Shown here: piece by piece, positions 13,509 through 28,760 of the stretch | Layout: the number at the start of each line of letters is the position of its first letter | Numbering within the stretch: the stretch's first letter is position 1 | Assembly (NCBI GenBank): GCA_019694735.1 | Contig: JAIBBJ010000013.1 | Span: 1 to 36,906 of the forward strand | Direction: 5' to 3' | Length of the DNA: 36,906 nt | Source: Gemmatimonadaceae bacterium | GTDB taxonomy: Bacteria > Gemmatimonadota > Gemmatimonadetes > Gemmatimonadales > Gemmatimonadaceae | Position numbers and translations under genes: made by a program | Notes under the pieces: generated by a model | Told to the model about the DNA's origin: nothing | The model's database searches: none | Seen by the model: the letters and a program-made list of their open reading frames with translations, nothing else

Positions 13509-16412
13509 ATGCGTCCGACGCTGCTGCGCTCCCTCCTCCTGCTGGGCGTGTTCACGCTCGCCGTCTCCTGTGCGGGTGACGGCCCGACCGCCCCGGCCCG
13601 CGTCGAGCTGCGCCGCCCGGCCACGGCCGGCGTGGTCGGCACCGGCCCCGCGGTCCGCATCGCCGAGATCCACTATGACAATACCGGCACCGATGCCGGC
13701 GAGGCGATCGAGATCTCCGGCCCGGCCGGCACGGACCTGACGGGGTGGACGGTCGTGCTCTACAACGGCAACGTGCCGAGCGCGGCGGTCGCGTACGGCA
13801 CGACCGCCCTCACGGGCACGATCCCCACGACCTGCAACCAGCGCGGGGTCGTGGTGGTCTCGTACCCGGTGAATGGCATCCAGAACGGGCCGAATGACGG
13901 CGTGGCGCTCGTGAACAACGTCGGCACGGTGGTCGAGTTCCTCTCGTACGAAGGCCCGATGACTGCGAGTGCCGGACCGGCGCTCGGTCTGACCTCCACG
14001 AACATCGGCGTGAGCGAGGTCGGCACCGAGGTGGTCGGCCTCAGCCTGCAACGGCGTCCCGACGGCACCTGGACGTCGCCGGTCCCGCAGACGTTCGGTG
14101 CCTGCAACGACGGCGACGAGAACGCCGGGGCGACGCCCACCGTCGCGTCGGTCGTCGTGAGCCCCGAGGCCGCGACTGTCCAGGTCGGCGCGACGGTGGC
14201 GCTGACCGCGTCCGCCCGCGATGCCGCGGATGCGCCGATCGCCGGCGCGGCCCTGAGCTGGACCTCCACGGCGGAGGCCGTCGCGACCGTCTCCGCGAGC
14301 GGCCTCGTGACCGGCGTCGCGGCCGGGGACGCACTCATCATCGCCGCCGCGGAGAACGGGCGCGCCGACACCGCCACCGTGACGGTGACCCCGCCGCCCC
14401 CGCCGCCCGCGGGCGTGCGGTTCTCCGAGCTCCACTACGACAACTTCGGGACGGACGTGAATGAGGGCATCGAGGTCGAGGGCCCAGCCGGCACCGATCT
14501 CGCCGGCTGGCGCATCTACCTCTACAATGGCAACGGCGGCGTCACCTATGAGCCGACGCAGACGCTGAGCGGCACCATCCCCGACGCCTGCAGCGGCCGG
14601 GGCGTGGTGGCGGTGACGTACCCCAGCAACGGCATCCAGAACGGCGCACCGGACGGCATGGCGCTCGTGAATGCCGACGGGACGGTCATCGAGTTCCTCT
14701 CCTACGAAGGCACCTTCACCGCGACCAACGGACCGGCGGCCGGCCTGACCTCGGTCGACATCGGCGTCCTGCAGAACTCGGCGCCCGTCGGGACCTCGCT
14801 CCAGCGCAACGCGGCGGGCACCTGGGTGGAGGCGCCGTCGAACCTCGGCTACTGCTTCGGCGTCACGCCGCCTCCGCCGGCCAACGGCATCACGTTCAGC
14901 GGCCGCGACAACACGGACCCGCCCCTCCCCGTCGGCTTCGAGGACCAGCTGTTCGCGACGCTGCGCTCCGGCGCGGACGGCTCGACGATCGCGACGACCT
15001 GGACGTGGACCTCGGAGACCCCGCTGCTGGCGTCGGTGGATGCCAATGGCGTCGTGCGCGCCCTCGGTGCCGGCACGATGGTCCTGCGGGCGACGGCCAG
15101 CGACGGCACGACCGCGACGTACGCGCTCGAGAGCCGCGTGGCGTCGCCGGGCACCGCGGCCTACGCGAACAACACCGAGTTCGGCGATCCGTCGGACGGC
15201 GACGCATCGGACGAGATCATCCTCCGGCGCGCGCAGTACACCTCGTCGTTCAGCGCCGCCCGCGGCATCCCCAACTGGGTCAGCTATGACCTCGACGCCT
15301 CGCATTTCGGCGCGGAGGATCGGTGCGACTGCTTCACGTACGATCCGGAACTGCCCGCGGCGCAGCGCTACACCACGGCGGACTACACGGGCGCGGGCGC
15401 CGCGGCCGGCTATGGCATCGATCGCGGCCATCTCGCGCGCTCGTTCGACCGCACGTCGGGATCGGCGGACAACGCCACGACCTTCTATTTCGCGAACATC
15501 ATCCCGCAGGCGTCGGACAACAATCAGGGCCCGTGGGCGGCGTTCGAGACGTACCTCGGTGACCTCGCGCGGTTCAGCGACCGCGAGGTCCACATCATCG
15601 CCGGGGCCTCCGGATCGAAGGGAACCGTGAAGAACGAGGGCCGGATCACGATCCCCACCATCACGTGGAAGGTGGCGGTCGTCCTGCCGCGCGACGGCGG
15701 GCTGTCCGCGGTGCACGGTCCGGATGACCTCGAGGTCATCGCGGTGCTGATGCCGAACGACCCGGGGATCCGCAACGTGCCGTGGGAGACGTACCGCGTG
15801 ACCGTGGACGCCGTCGAGGCGGCGAGCGGCTTCGACGTGCTCTCCGCGCTCCGGGACGACATCGAGATCGCGGTGGAGAGCGGCACGCGCGCGCCGACGG
15901 CAGCGCTGGACGGGCCGTGGAGCACCATCGCGGGCGACCTGCTGACGATGAGCGGAGCCGGCTCCACCGATCCGGACGCGGATGCGCTCGCATTCGCGTG
16001 GGACTTCGGCGACGGGACCACCGGCACGGGGGCGACCCCGTCCCACGCCTTCGGTGCGGCGGGCGCCTTCACGGTCACGCTCGTCGTCACCGACGCGCGC
16101 GGCCTCGCCGACACGACCGTCAGCACGGCGACCGTCGCGCCGTTCACGACCGCACTGGGCTTCGCGCGGTGGCGGTCCACCACGACCGCCCTCTACGCCG
16201 ACGGCGCGCTCTCGAAGGCCATGCGCAACACGCTGCTCGGCGTGCTGGACAAGGCGGAAGCGGCCGCGGCGGCAGGCGACGCCGCCAAGGCGCGCCAGCG
16301 CGTCGAGGAGGCGATCGAGGACATCGCCGTCGCGCTGCGCAAGAACCTCATCAGCCGCGCCTCGGCGGATGCGGTGCTCGCGATTCTCGATCGGACGCTC
16401 GCTACGCTCTGA
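13509..16412 (+). CDS. multidomain secreted DNA/RNA non-specific endonuclease with two lamin-tail domains
   Basis: This encodes 967 residues. N-terminal signal MRPTLLRSLLLLGVFTLAVSC with a relaxed lipobox (AVSC, Cys21). In order: lamin-tail domain 1 (about 48-200, IAEIHYDNTGTDAGEAIEI), Ig-like Big_2 domain (about 210-294), Pro-rich linker, lamin-tail domain 2 (about 303-450, FSELHYDNFGTDVNEGIEV), a second Big_2-like domain (about 460-545), the beta-beta-alpha-metal nuclease (about 553-780), PKD domain (about 794-876, AWDFGDG), and a C-terminal helical domain (880-967). The nuclease has DRGH with catalytic His641 and, later, the NNQGPWAAFE helix carrying the metal-binding Asn, as in NUC1/Serratia-type enzymes. 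It probably degrades extracellular nucleic acid as a surface-bound scavenger; the substrate is inferred from the family. A strong hairpin follows. Confidence 0.92.
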   Translation: MRPTLLRSLLLLGVFTLAVSCAGDGPTAPARVELRRPATAGVVGTGPAVRIAEIHYDNTGTDAGEAIEISGPAGTDLTGWTVVLYNGNVPSAAVAYGTTALTGTIPTTCNQRGVVVVSYPVNGIQNGPNDGVALVNNVGTVVEFLSYEGPMTASAGPALGLTSTNIGVSEVGTEVVGLSLQRRPDGTWTSPVPQTFGACNDGDENAGATPTVASVVVSPEAATVQVGATVALTASARDAADAPIAGAALSWTSTAEAVATVSASGLVTGVAAGDALIIAAAENGRADTATVTVTPPPPPPAGVRFSELHYDNFGTDVNEGIEVEGPAGTDLAGWRIYLYNGNGGVTYEPTQTLSGTIPDACSGRGVVAVTYPSNGIQNGAPDGMALVNADGTVIEFLSYEGTFTATNGPAAGLTSVDIGVLQNSAPVGTSLQRNAAGTWVEAPSNLGYCFGVTPPPPANGITFSGRDNTDPPLPVGFEDQLFATLRSGADGSTIATTWTWTSETPLLASVDANGVVRALGAGTMVLRATASDGTTATYALESRVASPGTAAYANNTEFGDPSDGDASDEIILRRAQYTSSFSAARGIPNWVSYDLDASHFGAEDRCDCFTYDPELPAAQRYTTADYTGAGAAAGYGIDRGHLARSFDRTSGSADNATTFYFANIIPQASDNNQGPWAAFETYLGDLARFSDREVHIIAGASGSKGTVKNEGRITIPTITWKVAVVLPRDGGLSAVHGPDDLEVIAVLMPNDPGIRNVPWETYRVTVDAVEAASGFDVLSALRDDIEIAVESGTRAPTAALDGPWSTIAGDLLTMSGAGSTDPDADALAFAWDFGDGTTGTGATPSHAFGAAGAFTVTLVVTDARGLADTTVSTATVAPFTTALGFARWRSTTTALYADGALSKAMRNTLLGVLDKAEAAAAAGDAAKARQRVEEAIEDIAVALRKNLISRASADAVLAILDRTLATL

Positions 16413-16486: not shown

Positions 16487-17023
16487 TCAGCCGACGGTGA
16501 GCGTCCCCGCCAGCGCATCGAGGGTGACACCGTATTCGGCGAGGTCCGAAGCCCGTTGCCCACCGGTCCATCGCCCCTGGGCGTCGAACCGCGCCCCGTG
16601 ATTGGGGCATTCGAAGCCGCCGCCCGTGATCGCGATGGGGCGGTAGCCCGCGTGCGGACAGATCATCGAGAACGCGCGAAAGGTGCCCGCCGTCAGGCGG
16701 GCGACCGCGATCGGCCGGCGGCCGCCGCCATCCACGCGCGCGATGCCGCCGTCGGCGGCGAGCGCGGGGAAGTCCGCGAGCACGACCACCAGCGGACCAC
16801 TGCTGGTGACGCCCCCACCGCCGGACTCGGCGCCCGTGACCCCGCCGATGTTGCCGTCGCCGCACGCGGCGAGGAAGGCCGCGACCGTAGCGGCGAGGGT
16901 CGTCGCGAGGAAGTGTCGGCGGGCGGGATCGCACGCGTCGGGCACGGCGCGGAGACCGGCGTCGGGGCAGTCCGCGGCGCAGCGCGGCGACGGCGGAACG
17001 CGCGGGGTGACGGCGCCGCTCAT
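16487..17023 (-). CDS. Rieske [2Fe-2S] protein, Tat-exported lipoprotein
   Basis: This encodes 178 residues. The C-terminal Rieske fold has SMICPHAGY with Cys122 and His124, and CPNHGARF with Cys139 and His142: the full set of cluster ligands. The disulfide cysteines of the respiratory bc1 type are absent, so this is a ferredoxin- or soluble-type Rieske domain. The N-terminus has ARRHFL (Tat) and then LAAC, a lipobox at Cys54, so folded export and lipid anchoring in the periplasm are likely. About 34 residues with three Cys (15, 19, 31) precede the twin arginine, unusually long; a GTG at residue 28 is an alternative start. The ATGA overlap with the upstream membrane gene supports the longer start. 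Likely role: electron carrier paired with that membrane protein. Confidence 0.9.
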   Translation of the reverse strand: MSGAVTPRVPPSPRCAADCPDAGLRAVPDACDPARRHFLATTLAATVAAFLAACGDGNIGGVTGAESGGGGVTSSGPLVVVLADFPALAADGGIARVDGGGRRPIAVARLTAGTFRAFSMICPHAGYRPIAITGGGFECPNHGARFDAQGRWTGGQRASDLAEYGVTLDALAGTLTVG

Positions 17024-17634
17024 CGCCGGCTCGCGAAGACGTCGAGCATCGTCAGGTAGCTGACGGTCGCGATGCCGATCGACGAGAGCGCGACCGCCCG
17101 GTGCAGGTCTCGCGCATCGCCCGATGTCTCGGCGCGGTCGGCGAGGAGGCCGGTCGCGACGAAGCCCGCGTCCGCCACGAGCATCGTGACCCCATGGAAC
17201 GTGCGCCGCCCACGATCCGTGGGGTCACGTCGTGCCTCCCAGAGGTTCTGGACGCCGGTGAACGTGTTGAGCCCGAAGAGCGCGGCGACGCCGGTGGCCG
17301 CGACGCGGTGGCCGGTCCGCGCCCAGGCCGGCGCCTCGAAGCTCTTCTCGACGAGCTGCCGGCCGGCGGCGTACTGGAACGCGAAGAGCGGAAGCACGAA
17401 GTAGCTGGCCGTACGGTGCACGTCGAGGCGACGATAGTACGCGGCCGAGTACTCGAATGCCGTGTCGGGCGCCGCGCCGCGCGGGCCGCGCCCCACCCCG
17501 CCCCGCGCGGCGTCGAACCGGGCGAGCACGACGGGGGCAGCGGGCGTCGAGGCACGGTCCGGCACCGCGGCGAGGGTCGCGGGGACTTGCGCGAGCGCCT
17601 GCACGACGAGGAACGAGAGGACGGTGAGGTCCAT
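17020..17634 (-). CDS. four-helix membrane protein with conserved-looking histidines, possible b-type heme carrier
   Basis: This encodes 204 residues. Start 17634 gives a signal-like N-terminus (MDLTVLSFLVVQALAQ); an in-frame ATG at 17700 is possible. After a Pro/Ala/Gly-rich linker come four hydrophobic segments (about 74-90, 110-130, 147-165, 178-198), each opening with a His: His73, His109, His147, His178. A His at the start of every helix is the arrangement that would suit bis-His heme coordination, as in cytochrome b561-like bundles, but I do not recognise the family and heme binding is inferred. Its stop overlaps the Rieske start (ATGA), so the two are translationally coupled. It diverges from the dipeptidase across 85 nt. 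Confidence 0.75.
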   Translation of the reverse strand: MDLTVLSFLVVQALAQVPATLAAVPDRASTPAAPVVLARFDAARGGVGRGPRGAAPDTAFEYSAAYYRRLDVHRTASYFVLPLFAFQYAAGRQLVEKSFEAPAWARTGHRVAATGVAALFGLNTFTGVQNLWEARRDPTDRGRRTFHGVTMLVADAGFVATGLLADRAETSGDARDLHRAVALSSIGIATVSYLTMLDVFASRR

Positions 17635-17719: not shown

Positions 17720-19030
17720 ATGTCAAGGTTCCTTCGGTCGGTCCTGCCCCTCCTCGTGCTCACCGCTGGCCGCGCCCGGGCGCAGGACGACCCGGCGCTC
17801 GTCGCGCGGGCCCGCGCGATCCATGACCGCGTGATGACGCTCGACACCCACGTGGACATCAGTCCGGCCGCCTTCCGGCGCGATTCCGCGAACTACGTCA
17901 CCGGGATCGCGCGCAACCAGGTGGACCTGCCGAAGATGGAGGCCGGCGGGCTCGATGCCGCGTTCCTCATCGTGTACGTGGGACAGGCCCGCGTCATCAA
18001 CGACTCCACGATGGCCGAGGCGTATCGCCAGGCGATGGAGAAGTTCGCGGCGGTGCACCGGCTCACCGACTCGCTGGCGCCGACGCGCGTGGGCTTCGCC
18101 CGCACCCCCGACGAGGCGCGGCGCATCTACGCGAGCGGGCGGAAGGTCGTCTTCATCGGCATCGAGAACGGGTTCCCGATCGGCAACGACCTGTCGCGGA
18201 TCCGCCAGTTCGCCGAGCTCGGCGGGCGCTACCTCTCACTCGCGCACAACGGGCACAGCCAGCTGTCCGACTCGAACACCGGCGAGCGCGACGGCGTGTG
18301 GCAATGGAACGGGCTCAGTCCGATGGGGCGCCAGGCGATCGACTCGCTGAACCTGTACGGCGTGATGATCGACATCTCGCACCCGAGCAAGGCGTCGATG
18401 ATGCAGACCGTGGAGCGCACGAAGGCGCCGATCATCGCCTCGCACTCCGGCGTCCGGGCGCTCTGCAACGTCTCCCGCAACCTCGACGACGAGCAGATCC
18501 GCGCGATGGGGCGGAACGGCGGCGTGATCCAGCTGGTGGCCTTCAACAGCTACGTGAAGTGCAACCCCGTCCGGGACGCGGAGCGGCAGGCGGCGGTGAC
18601 GGCGCTGCGCCAGCAGTACGGCATCACGGCGACCGCGCCGCGCGAGGTGCAGCAGGCGGTCGCGGCGCTGCCCGAGGACCGGCGCAACGCCTTCCTGGCG
18701 GCGCAGGAGGACATCACCGCGCGCCGCTACCCGGCCGACCCGATGGCGACGGTGAAGGACTACGTCGACCACATCGACTACGTCGTGAAGATGATCGGCA
18801 TCGACCACGTCGGGATCAGCTCCGACTTCGACGGCGGCGGCGGCGTGGACGGGTGGCGCAACGCGTCGGAGACGTTCAACGTGACCCTGGAGCTCGTGCG
18901 GCGCGGGTACACCGAGGAGCAGATCGCCAGGATCTGGAGCGGCAACCTGCTGCGCGTGATGGGAGAGGTGCAGGCGGTGGGCACGCGGCTGCGCGGCGGC
19001 CGGGCGATGGACGACGGGGCGGCGCCGTGA
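17720..19030 (+). CDS. membrane dipeptidase, peptidase family M19
   Basis: This encodes 436 residues. The signal peptide (MSRFLRSVLPLLVLTAGRARAQ) directs it to the periplasm. The TIM-barrel zinc sites of M19 are visible: TLDTHVDIS (His44, Asp46), GIENGFPIG (bridging Glu), LSLAHNGHS, IIASHSGVRALC (His) and the C-terminal IDHVGISSDFDGGGG motif. M19 enzymes (renal dipeptidase type) cleave dipeptides, including L,D and D-containing ones, with two zinc ions, and so serve peptide or cell-wall scavenging. The last 4 nt overlap the DUF2177 gene (GTGA). Confidence 0.95.
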   Translation: MSRFLRSVLPLLVLTAGRARAQDDPALVARARAIHDRVMTLDTHVDISPAAFRRDSANYVTGIARNQVDLPKMEAGGLDAAFLIVYVGQARVINDSTMAEAYRQAMEKFAAVHRLTDSLAPTRVGFARTPDEARRIYASGRKVVFIGIENGFPIGNDLSRIRQFAELGGRYLSLAHNGHSQLSDSNTGERDGVWQWNGLSPMGRQAIDSLNLYGVMIDISHPSKASMMQTVERTKAPIIASHSGVRALCNVSRNLDDEQIRAMGRNGGVIQLVAFNSYVKCNPVRDAERQAAVTALRQQYGITATAPREVQQAVAALPEDRRNAFLAAQEDITARRYPADPMATVKDYVDHIDYVVKMIGIDHVGISSDFDGGGGVDGWRNASETFNVTLELVRRGYTEEQIARIWSGNLLRVMGEVQAVGTRLRGGRAMDDGAAP

Positions 19031-26669: not shown

Positions 26670-28760
26670 ATGCCCCGCCCCCCCCTCGCCGGCCTCGACT
26701 GGCGCCGCATCGCGTACCACGTGCTCGTCTCCCGCGCCCTCGACGACGTCGAGGAGGCGACGAACCGGAACCGCGCCACCGTGCCGAAGGACCACGTCGT
26801 GCTCTACCAGTTCTCGGCGCGCGGGCACGACGTGGCCCAGTGCATCCTCGGCGCGATGATCGACGGCAGGCGCGATGCGGCGGGCGCGTACTATCGCAGC
26901 CGCCCGCTGCTCCTCTCGCTCGGCCTCCCGATCGAGGACGCGCTCGGATCGCCGCTCGGCCGCGCCGGCGGATTCTCCGACGGCCGCGACATCGGCGTCG
27001 TCTGCAACCTCCCCAATCCCGACGGACCGGTGGTCCTGCCGATGTCCGGCGACGTCGGTTCGCAGTACACGCCGACTGCCGGATGGGCGCAGGCGATCAC
27101 CTACCATCGCGACACGCTGCAGGACCCCGCCTGGGCCGGCGCGATGGGCGTCGCGCTCGGCGGCGACGCGTCGGTGGCGACCAGCGGCTTCTGGGCGGCG
27201 CTCACGATGGCGACCACGCTCAAGCTGCCGATGCTCTTCTACATCGAGGACAACGACCTCGGCATCAGCGTGAAGGGCGGGATGCAGACCCCGGGGGGCA
27301 ACATCGCGCGCAATCTCGCCGCGTTCGGCGAGCTGTTCATCCGCGACGGCGATGGCACCGACCCCGACGCGACCGCACGCCTCGTGCGCGAGTGCGTGGC
27401 GCACGTGCGATCGGGCGCCGGTCCGGCGCTCGTGCACCTGACGGTGCCCCGGCTCTCGAGCCACTCCGGCCCCGACAACCAGAAGGGCTACCGCACCGAC
27501 GCCGAGATCGCGGCCGACCAGGCGCGCGACCCGCTGCCGCGCCTGAAGGAGTACCTGGTGCCGGCGCTCCTCACCGAGGCCGACTGGGCCGCGCTCGAGT
27601 ACGAGGTGATGCGCGACGTGGAACGGGCGCTCGCCGCGGCCCGTGCGCGTCCCGTCCCCGACCCTGCGCGCATCGCGCAGCATGTCCGTGCGGACGACCG
27701 CGACGAGGTGGCCCCGGCGTTCGGCGGCCTGCCGCGGCACGTGCGCCGCGCGCTCGGCGGCACCGACGCGCCGCGCGAGGACGGCGAGCTGCTGCGCTTC
27801 GCCGAGGCGGTGCGGCGCACGCTGCGCCGCGAGCTCGAGGTGAACCCGCGCGTCGTGGTCTTCGGCGAGGACGTCGGCCGGAAGGGCGGCGTCCACCTCG
27901 TGACCGAGGGGCTGCAGAAGCAATTCGGCGCCGACCGCGTGTTCGACACGAGCCTGAGCGAGGAAGGCATCATCGGGCGGGCGAGCGGACTCGCGATCAG
28001 CGGCCTCATGCCGGTCGCGGAGATCCAGTTCCGCAAGTACGCCGACCCGGCGACCGAGCAGCTGAACAACACGGGCACGATGCGGTGGCGCACCAACAAC
28101 CGCTTCGCGGCGCCGATGGTGGTCCGGATGCCGGGGGGCTTCGGGAAGGATGTCGGCGACCCGTGGCATTCGCTCTCCGACGAGGTGCGGTTCGCGCACG
28201 CGTACGGGTGGCAGGTGGCGATCCCGTCCAACGCGGCCGACGCGGTCGGGCTGCTGCGCGCCGCCCTGCGCTCGCCCGATCCCACCATCTTCTTCGAGCA
28301 CCGCTCCCTGCTGATGACCGGCGACGGCAGCGCCCGCTATCCGGGCGACGACTACGTCCTGCCGTTCGGGCGCGCCCGCGTGGTGCAGCCGGGCCGCGCG
28401 CTCACGCTCGTCTCGTGGGGTGCGATGGTGCACCGATGCGCCGAGGCCGCGGCCCGGTTCCCGGACATCGTCGAGCTGCTCGACCTGCGCACGATCGCGC
28501 CGTGGGACCGCGGCGCGGTCCTCGCCTCGGTGGAGCGGACCGGCCGCTGCCTCATCGTGCACGAGGACAACCTCACCGCCGGCTTCGGCGCCGAGGTCGC
28601 GGCCGTGGTGACGCAGGAGGCGTTCTGGCATCTCGACGCCCCGGTGCGCCGGCTCGCGCCCGAGGACATCCCGATGCCCTACCATCCGGTGCTCCTCGAC
28701 GCCGTCCTGCCGGACGCCGACCGCATCGCGCTCGCGATCGAGGCCCTACTGGACGTGTGA
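26670..28760 (+). CDS. 2-oxoacid dehydrogenase E1, fused alpha and beta subunits
   Basis: This encodes 696 residues. The alpha part (about 1-360) binds thiamine diphosphate: GVALGGDASVATSGFW with the downstream EDNDLGIS is a variant GDG-N30-N motif. YQFSARGHDVAQCILGAMI and the alpha signature GxQYTPTAGWAQA precede it. The beta part (about 375-696) has VVVFGEDVGRKGG, EEGIIGRASGLAISGLMPVAEIQF, the IPSNAADAVGLLRAA loop and the C-terminal TGRCLIVHEDNLTAGFGAEVAA. Fused E1 is common in Bacteroidota and Gemmatimonadota branched-chain (2-oxoisovalerate) complexes. E2 and E3 are not nearby, so substrate is inferred. It is divergent from paaG by 59 nt and overlaps the convergent phosphoribosyltransferase by 15 nt. 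Confidence 0.93.
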   Translation: MPRPPLAGLDWRRIAYHVLVSRALDDVEEATNRNRATVPKDHVVLYQFSARGHDVAQCILGAMIDGRRDAAGAYYRSRPLLLSLGLPIEDALGSPLGRAGGFSDGRDIGVVCNLPNPDGPVVLPMSGDVGSQYTPTAGWAQAITYHRDTLQDPAWAGAMGVALGGDASVATSGFWAALTMATTLKLPMLFYIEDNDLGISVKGGMQTPGGNIARNLAAFGELFIRDGDGTDPDATARLVRECVAHVRSGAGPALVHLTVPRLSSHSGPDNQKGYRTDAEIAADQARDPLPRLKEYLVPALLTEADWAALEYEVMRDVERALAAARARPVPDPARIAQHVRADDRDEVAPAFGGLPRHVRRALGGTDAPREDGELLRFAEAVRRTLRRELEVNPRVVVFGEDVGRKGGVHLVTEGLQKQFGADRVFDTSLSEEGIIGRASGLAISGLMPVAEIQFRKYADPATEQLNNTGTMRWRTNNRFAAPMVVRMPGGFGKDVGDPWHSLSDEVRFAHAYGWQVAIPSNAADAVGLLRAALRSPDPTIFFEHRSLLMTGDGSARYPGDDYVLPFGRARVVQPGRALTLVSWGAMVHRCAEAAARFPDIVELLDLRTIAPWDRGAVLASVERTGRCLIVHEDNLTAGFGAEVAAVVTQEAFWHLDAPVRRLAPEDIPMPYHPVLLDAVLPDADRIALAIEALLDV

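Follow-up and report, generated by a model that had tools for sequence, protein, structure and literature searches.

Within the window, the whole stretch of 36,906 nucleotides that was analysed, two overlapping genes on the minus strand encode a small membrane protein, referred to here as MP, and a Rieske protein, referred to here as RK. The features of this locus are as follows:

17020..17634, minus strand: MP, a 204-amino-acid, predicted four-helix membrane protein of an unnamed family (open reading frame, homologues, AlphaFold2)
17416..17418, minus strand: His73 codon, MP helix 1, residues 64-100 (sequence, fold prediction, alignment)
17308..17310, minus strand: His109 codon, MP helix 2, residues 103-136 (sequence, fold prediction, alignment)
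17194..17196, minus strand: His147 codon, MP helix 3, residues 141-168 (sequence, fold prediction, alignment)
17101..17103, minus strand: His178 codon, MP helix 4, residues 172-195 (sequence, fold prediction, alignment)
17020..17023, minus strand: ATGA overlap of the MP stop and the RK start (sequence)
16487..17023, minus strand: RK, a predicted 178-amino-acid exported Rieske [2Fe-2S] lipoprotein of the Rieske B type (open reading frame, motifs, Pfam)
16907..16921, minus strand: twin-arginine stretch RRHFL of RK, residues 35-39 (sequence)
16862..16873, minus strand: lipobox LAAC of RK, residues 51-54, ending in Cys54 (sequence)
16598..16660, minus strand: ligand region CPH...CPNH of RK, with C122, H124, C139 and H142 (sequence)

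The two reading frames share the minus-strand bases 17023-17020, which read ATGA, as had been described in an earlier reading made from the letters of the window (the sequence-only reading). An upstream ATG for MP is possible at 17859. Because this start would overlap the divergent gene for an M19 dipeptidase (17720-19030, plus strand), and because close homologues share a start equivalent to 17634, we kept MP as a protein of 204 amino acids. MP passed no Pfam cut-off and had no NCBIfam match, and the family libraries that we used leave it nameless, as a member of an unnamed family.

RK matched the Pfam Rieske model (PF00355) with 38.5 bits (cut-off 20.3, E = 1.1e-9), and its four proposed cluster ligands, Cys122, His124, Cys139 and His142, were found in place within CPHAGY...CPNHGARF. 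Its proposed export as a Tat lipoprotein was supported by the twin-arginine stretch and by the lipobox; the Pfam TAT_signal model matched RK below its cut-off (E = 0.0055). These motifs predict an exported Rieske domain protein that would hold its cluster through CxH and CxxH ligands. Tyr and Asn occupy the positions of the disulphide cysteines in RK, and Ala and Phe occupy those of the Ser and Tyr that tune the potential. Because of the Ala, the Phe and the missing disulphide, the potential of RK is predicted, with caution, to lie below that of the bc1 Rieske protein.

Convergent with RK, positions 13509-16412 of the window (plus strand) encode a 967-amino-acid DNA/RNA non-specific endonuclease with Lamin tail, Big_2 and PKD domains; similar proteins are also encoded downstream in some loci of the same genus (L035, L036). 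Elsewhere in the window (26670-28760, plus strand), a 696-amino-acid protein fuses the alpha and beta parts of an E1 dehydrogenase (E1_dh, Transket_pyr, Transketolase_C).

Conserved histidines and predicted fold of MP

Homologues of MP were found in 31 of the 61 nearest genomes and in 122 of 395 Gemmatimonadota genomes, representing 39 of 138 genera. When contigs were scanned with the single MP protein as query, four close relatives were returned, all from Gemmatimonadota, the phylum to which the named relatives belong; a search of plasmids gave no match. An alignment of 35 homologues, 34-61% identical to the window protein, contained 14 invariant columns: Y66, H73, P82, G91, H109, A113, F120, N123, T126, G127, N130, H147, F158 and H178. 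The sequence-only reading had set the invariance of the four histidines among homologues beforehand as a test. Among 118 Gemmatimonadota homologues from 118 loci, His73 was kept in 113/113, His109 in 116/117, His147 in 117/117 and His178 in 118/118, where the denominators are the sequences that cover the position and gene models that do not reach it were left out. The sole true substitution was one Met at position 109. The alignment indicates that this four-histidine pattern is not due to chance.

An AlphaFold2 model of MP, built from the 35-sequence alignment, consists of four helices (64-100, 103-136, 141-168 and 172-195), mostly with pLDDT above 90, that follow 60 uncertain N-terminal residues. 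As the sequence-only reading had proposed, one histidine lies near the start of each helix: His73, His109, His147 and His178 sit 6 to 9 residues in, where the hydrophobic part begins. Each is also near the centre of the conserved face of its helix, with conservation moments pointing 16, 17, 2 and 33 degrees away from the histidine in helices 1 to 4 (permutation p = 0.117, 0.022, 0.019 and 0.015). Similar spacings after the histidines recur between helices: three have a small residue at +4, helices 1-3 have Phe at +11, and helices 1-2 have Gly at +18.

In the model, the antiparallel course of the helices would put H73 and H147 at one end of the bundle and H109 and H178 at the other. Which end faces the periplasm is a point on which the topology signals conflict. 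Positive charges favour an arrangement with the N-terminal flank and the loop between helices 2 and 3 inside, whereas the signal-peptide-like N-terminus of MP and a CxxCH motif in the linker of one homologue favour the outside. In either orientation, one histidine pair would lie on each side of the membrane. The homologue in question (L066:5918-6592, plus strand) carries this motif, of the heme c type, before helix 1 and is a single case among 118.

In structural comparison, the designed diheme protein 4D2 superposed on the model with Z = 12.1 (r.m.s.d. of 1.8 Å over 100 residues) and cytochrome b6 with Z = 12.1 (3.2 Å over 126 residues). The match to 4D2 is unspecific, given that MP2, a second membrane protein encoded near many MP homologues, also matched 4D2 with Z = 12.0 and that other four-helix bundles outscored 4D2 against MP. 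Because the bundle match is common to MP2, we do not take it as evidence that heme is bound; the superposition speaks only for the feasibility of heme binding by MP. Foldseek returned no match at E < 0.001 for either the MP or the MP2 model. Among the structural matches listed there was no solved b561 structure, an absence to which we attach no weight.

Gene neighbourhoods of MP and the four-gene unit

We compared 118 MP loci, in which genes were called with a simple codon-usage caller. In 95 of 113 loci, a Rieske gene lay in the co-directional run of MP, no more than four genes away; this set excludes those loci without a Rieske gene that are cut by a contig end. The loci share descent within a single phylum and so are not independent. 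Among the other 18 loci, seven had a Rieske gene within five genes. The pairing of MP with a Rieske gene, whose conservation in other genomes the sequence-only reading had also set as a test, is therefore conserved. The window's 3.5 Mb genome contains three Rieske genes, so by our own estimate a chance adjacency of MP and a Rieske gene would have a probability of <1%. The other two genes lie in a Suf-like cluster and at an orphan locus (L104, contig C117, 1396-1920, minus strand); the orphan encodes an A-like, Tat-type protein (CPHRGTMVEW...CPKHKSTF) with neither MP nor MP2 beside it.

The commonest gene order among the 118 loci was MP-MP2-RieskeA-RieskeB, with MP2 present in the same co-directional run in 78 of 118. 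In the window's genus, the gene right after MP is Rieske B in most members, and 15 of 17 genomes, the window's own among them, have no MP2. The proposal of a minimal two-gene module thus mostly holds for this genus and does not describe the commonest unit; the window carries a short form of a four-gene module. Where MP and a Rieske gene are direct neighbours, the gap ranges from -11 to +233 bases, and an overlap of exactly ATGA is not the rule. The flanking genes vary between genera: the unit holds together while its surroundings change. A c-type cytochrome gene was looked for as a constant neighbour of the MP loci and was absent as a near-universal one. Four loci (L169, L170, L174 and L189) have two MP genes each, in the order MP-MP2-MP-RieskeA-RieskeB at L174.

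MP2 is a protein of about 170 amino acids with four main helices (mean pLDDT of 95) and invariant residues that include H39, D54, R55, H79, K113 and N123. Its 48 members showed weak matches to DUF2214 (36/48, best E = 2.4e-6), DUF6644 (22/48), UPF0093/HemJ (21/48) and CopD (8/48, best E = 1.1e-4). The two members checked in detail fell below the DUF2214 and UPF0093 cut-offs, with 22.9 bits against a cut-off of 34.1 for DUF2214. A comparison of the MP and MP2 profiles detected no kinship.

The two Rieske proteins of the full unit differ at the positions that tune the cluster. All 70 sequences of Rieske A (CPHQN..., CPKH/CPRH) retained both the Ser and the Tyr, and Rieske A has no disulphide cysteines. 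In Rieske B, Ala replaced the Ser in 65 and Phe the Tyr in 67 of 85 sequences, a set that still contains some A variants. In the yeast Rieske protein, the potential falls by 130 mV when the Ser is removed and by 65 mV when the Tyr is removed, as quoted in PMC12954380, which also shows a Rieske protein that bears Phe and yet has a high potential. Rieske A therefore retains the Ser/Tyr pair that raises the cluster potential, and most Rieske B sequences, RK among them, are without it.

Comparison with known redox systems

Membrane-linked Rieske proteins are mostly discussed within bc1/b6f complexes or a few oxidoreductases. The MP module resembles bc1 and b6f in having an exported Rieske protein beside a four-helix membrane protein, for which a diheme state is predicted. 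It differs in that a gene of the cytochrome b family is absent from the run. The histidines also differ, with one on each of four helices in MP, whereas in cytochrome b the heme histidines are on two helices; RK, for its part, has neither the disulphide cysteines nor the Ser/Tyr pair of the bc1/b6f Rieske proteins. We rejected the assignment of MP and RK to a bc1/b6f complex on the grounds of the missing cytochrome b and the other histidine pattern.

The bc1-type cytochrome b model (PF13631) had no match in the window's genome, whereas 81 of 150 genomes of the phylum and 8 control genomes matched. The window's genome has an NrfD-family match (at C32) and several matches to the COX1 oxidase family; the former suggests that an alternative complex III takes the place of bc1. 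MP is found in genomes that have PF13631 as well as in genomes that lack it.

A man-made protein has a comparable histidine arrangement. In 4D2, four histidines on alternating helices hold hemes across opposite helices (PMC10400981), and CytbX, its membrane version, contains two b hemes (PMC10120048). MP shares with 4D2 and CytbX (7ah0) a single-chain antiparallel four-helix bundle with histidines on alternating helices, and its heme is predicted. It differs in having a Rieske partner, whereas 4D2 is man-made, which precludes any membership, with hemes 6 Å apart and helices of 25 residues. A profile search of solved structures with MP returned only m4D2 (E = 0.068) and one unrelated match. Homology to m4D2 was rejected, as the similarity is confined to a few residues (YxxGQ...HR) and 4D2 is a designed protein.

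In keeping with the sequence-only reading, which could match the gene pair to no named system, we found no description of an MP-Rieske module in the open-licence literature, nor of DUF2231, DUF2214, DUF6644 or DUF4079 paired with a Rieske protein. Literature on Gemmatimonadota and Rieske proteins led to HucE, which is set among hydrogenase genes (PMC7784904). Overall, the earlier observation was right, and it is stronger than had been claimed.

A putative membrane heme wire linked to a Rieske protein

The best reading of MP and RK is an electron-transfer module. MP probably represents a new family of small b-type cytochromes that span the membrane, and would act as a two-heme membrane wire to the periplasmic Rieske protein. 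In the scheme that we infer, from heme in MP and the pairing of its ligands to the Rieske contact, the quinone partner and the direction of flow, His73 and His147 would lie at one membrane face and His109 and His178 at the other because the helices alternate in direction. The two histidines of a pair, on helices diagonal to each other, would ligate one heme b, and the two hemes would form a wire across the membrane. RK would dock on the periplasmic side and exchange electrons with the outer heme of MP. On the membrane side, electrons would come from or go to the quinone pool, which we consider likely, or the cytoplasm, and a further periplasmic partner would lie beyond the Rieske protein. In the fuller versions of the unit, MP2 and Rieske A would extend the chain.

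MP might instead be a distant member of a known diheme family, of the DUF4079 or b561 type, which would make the module an ordinary quinol-linked cytochrome b. Prokaryotic cytochromes b561 and Ni_hydr_CYTB proteins are small diheme cytochromes of the membrane with four helices and are able to react with quinone, as is E. coli CybB, cited in PMC10120048. MP resembles them in its predicted four helices and predicted diheme state, and 7 of 35 MP members matched PF01292. The window's MP reached only 14.9 bits where 30.1 are required, however, and an hhalign comparison with 23 prokaryotic b561 sequences of the phylum gave E = 0.8 with a probability near 0; MP was rejected as a PF01292 cytochrome b561 on both counts. 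Eukaryotic-type cytochromes b561 carry one heme-ligand histidine on each of four consecutive helices and have six helices in all. MP has one histidine on each of its four predicted helices; PF03188 was matched by only 1 of 35 members (E = 0.2), and in our search of the phylum PF03188 gave no positive control match, so that MP may yet be related to this family. Weak similarity to DUF4079 (PF13301) recurred, with 24 of 35 members matching at E up to 1 (best 3.6e-4). The match of the window's MP covered about 60 residues at a shifted position, and its 15.7 bits stayed below the cut-off of 31.4, so that MP was rejected as DUF4079 by the cut-off, though it may be distant kin. With all matches below their cut-offs, we regard membership in a known diheme family as unlikely.

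The invariant histidines could also bind copper or another metal, so that MP, together with a CopD-like MP2, would handle metal at the membrane, with the Rieske proteins as metal reductases or redox partners. The weak CopD matches of MP2, which stand along with those to DUF2214 and HemJ, fit this explanation; they are rarer than the DUF2214 matches (8 versus 36 of 48), and MP occurs without MP2 in the window's genus. Among the neighbouring genes listed, we noticed no copper gene, and the histidines are divided between the two ends of the bundle, with each alternating helix carrying one, which is a better fit to two bis-His hemes than to a single metal site. We therefore consider a metal site very unlikely. 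A role for MP, with or without MP2, as an assembly or anchoring factor that serves the Rieske proteins in folding, cluster protection or docking and carries no electrons would agree with the Rieske adjacency, our strongest fact, which also fits a dedicated chaperone, and the cofactor of MP is itself a prediction. Against this, a chaperone would need no four invariant membrane histidines with conserved faces centred on them, RK brings a Tat signal and a lipid anchor of its own, and some MP genes have no Rieske gene in their run. Such a role seems improbable to us.

An extension of the heme-wire reading, which is possible but doubtful, is that the full unit encodes a Gemmatimonadota redox complex of Rieske and cytochrome-b-like proteins whose origin was independent of bc1. 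In this complex, a diheme MP, a second heme protein MP2, a high-potential Rieske A and a low-potential Rieske B would pass electrons, or split them, between quinol and a pair of periplasmic carriers, and the window would encode its short form.

The pair is probably part of a previously undescribed electron-transfer module of Gemmatimonadota that does without the cytochrome b found in textbook Rieske complexes. If our reading is true, this phylum-wide module would offer a further route for linking a Rieske cluster to a heme wire in the membrane, whether or not a genome also has bc1. Should MP indeed carry two hemes, it would be the natural equivalent of minimal membrane cytochromes made by design, such as CytbX. 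For a poorly studied phylum, these results would give testable roles to genes that have been left unnamed, such as MP, or labelled just 'Rieske domain'.
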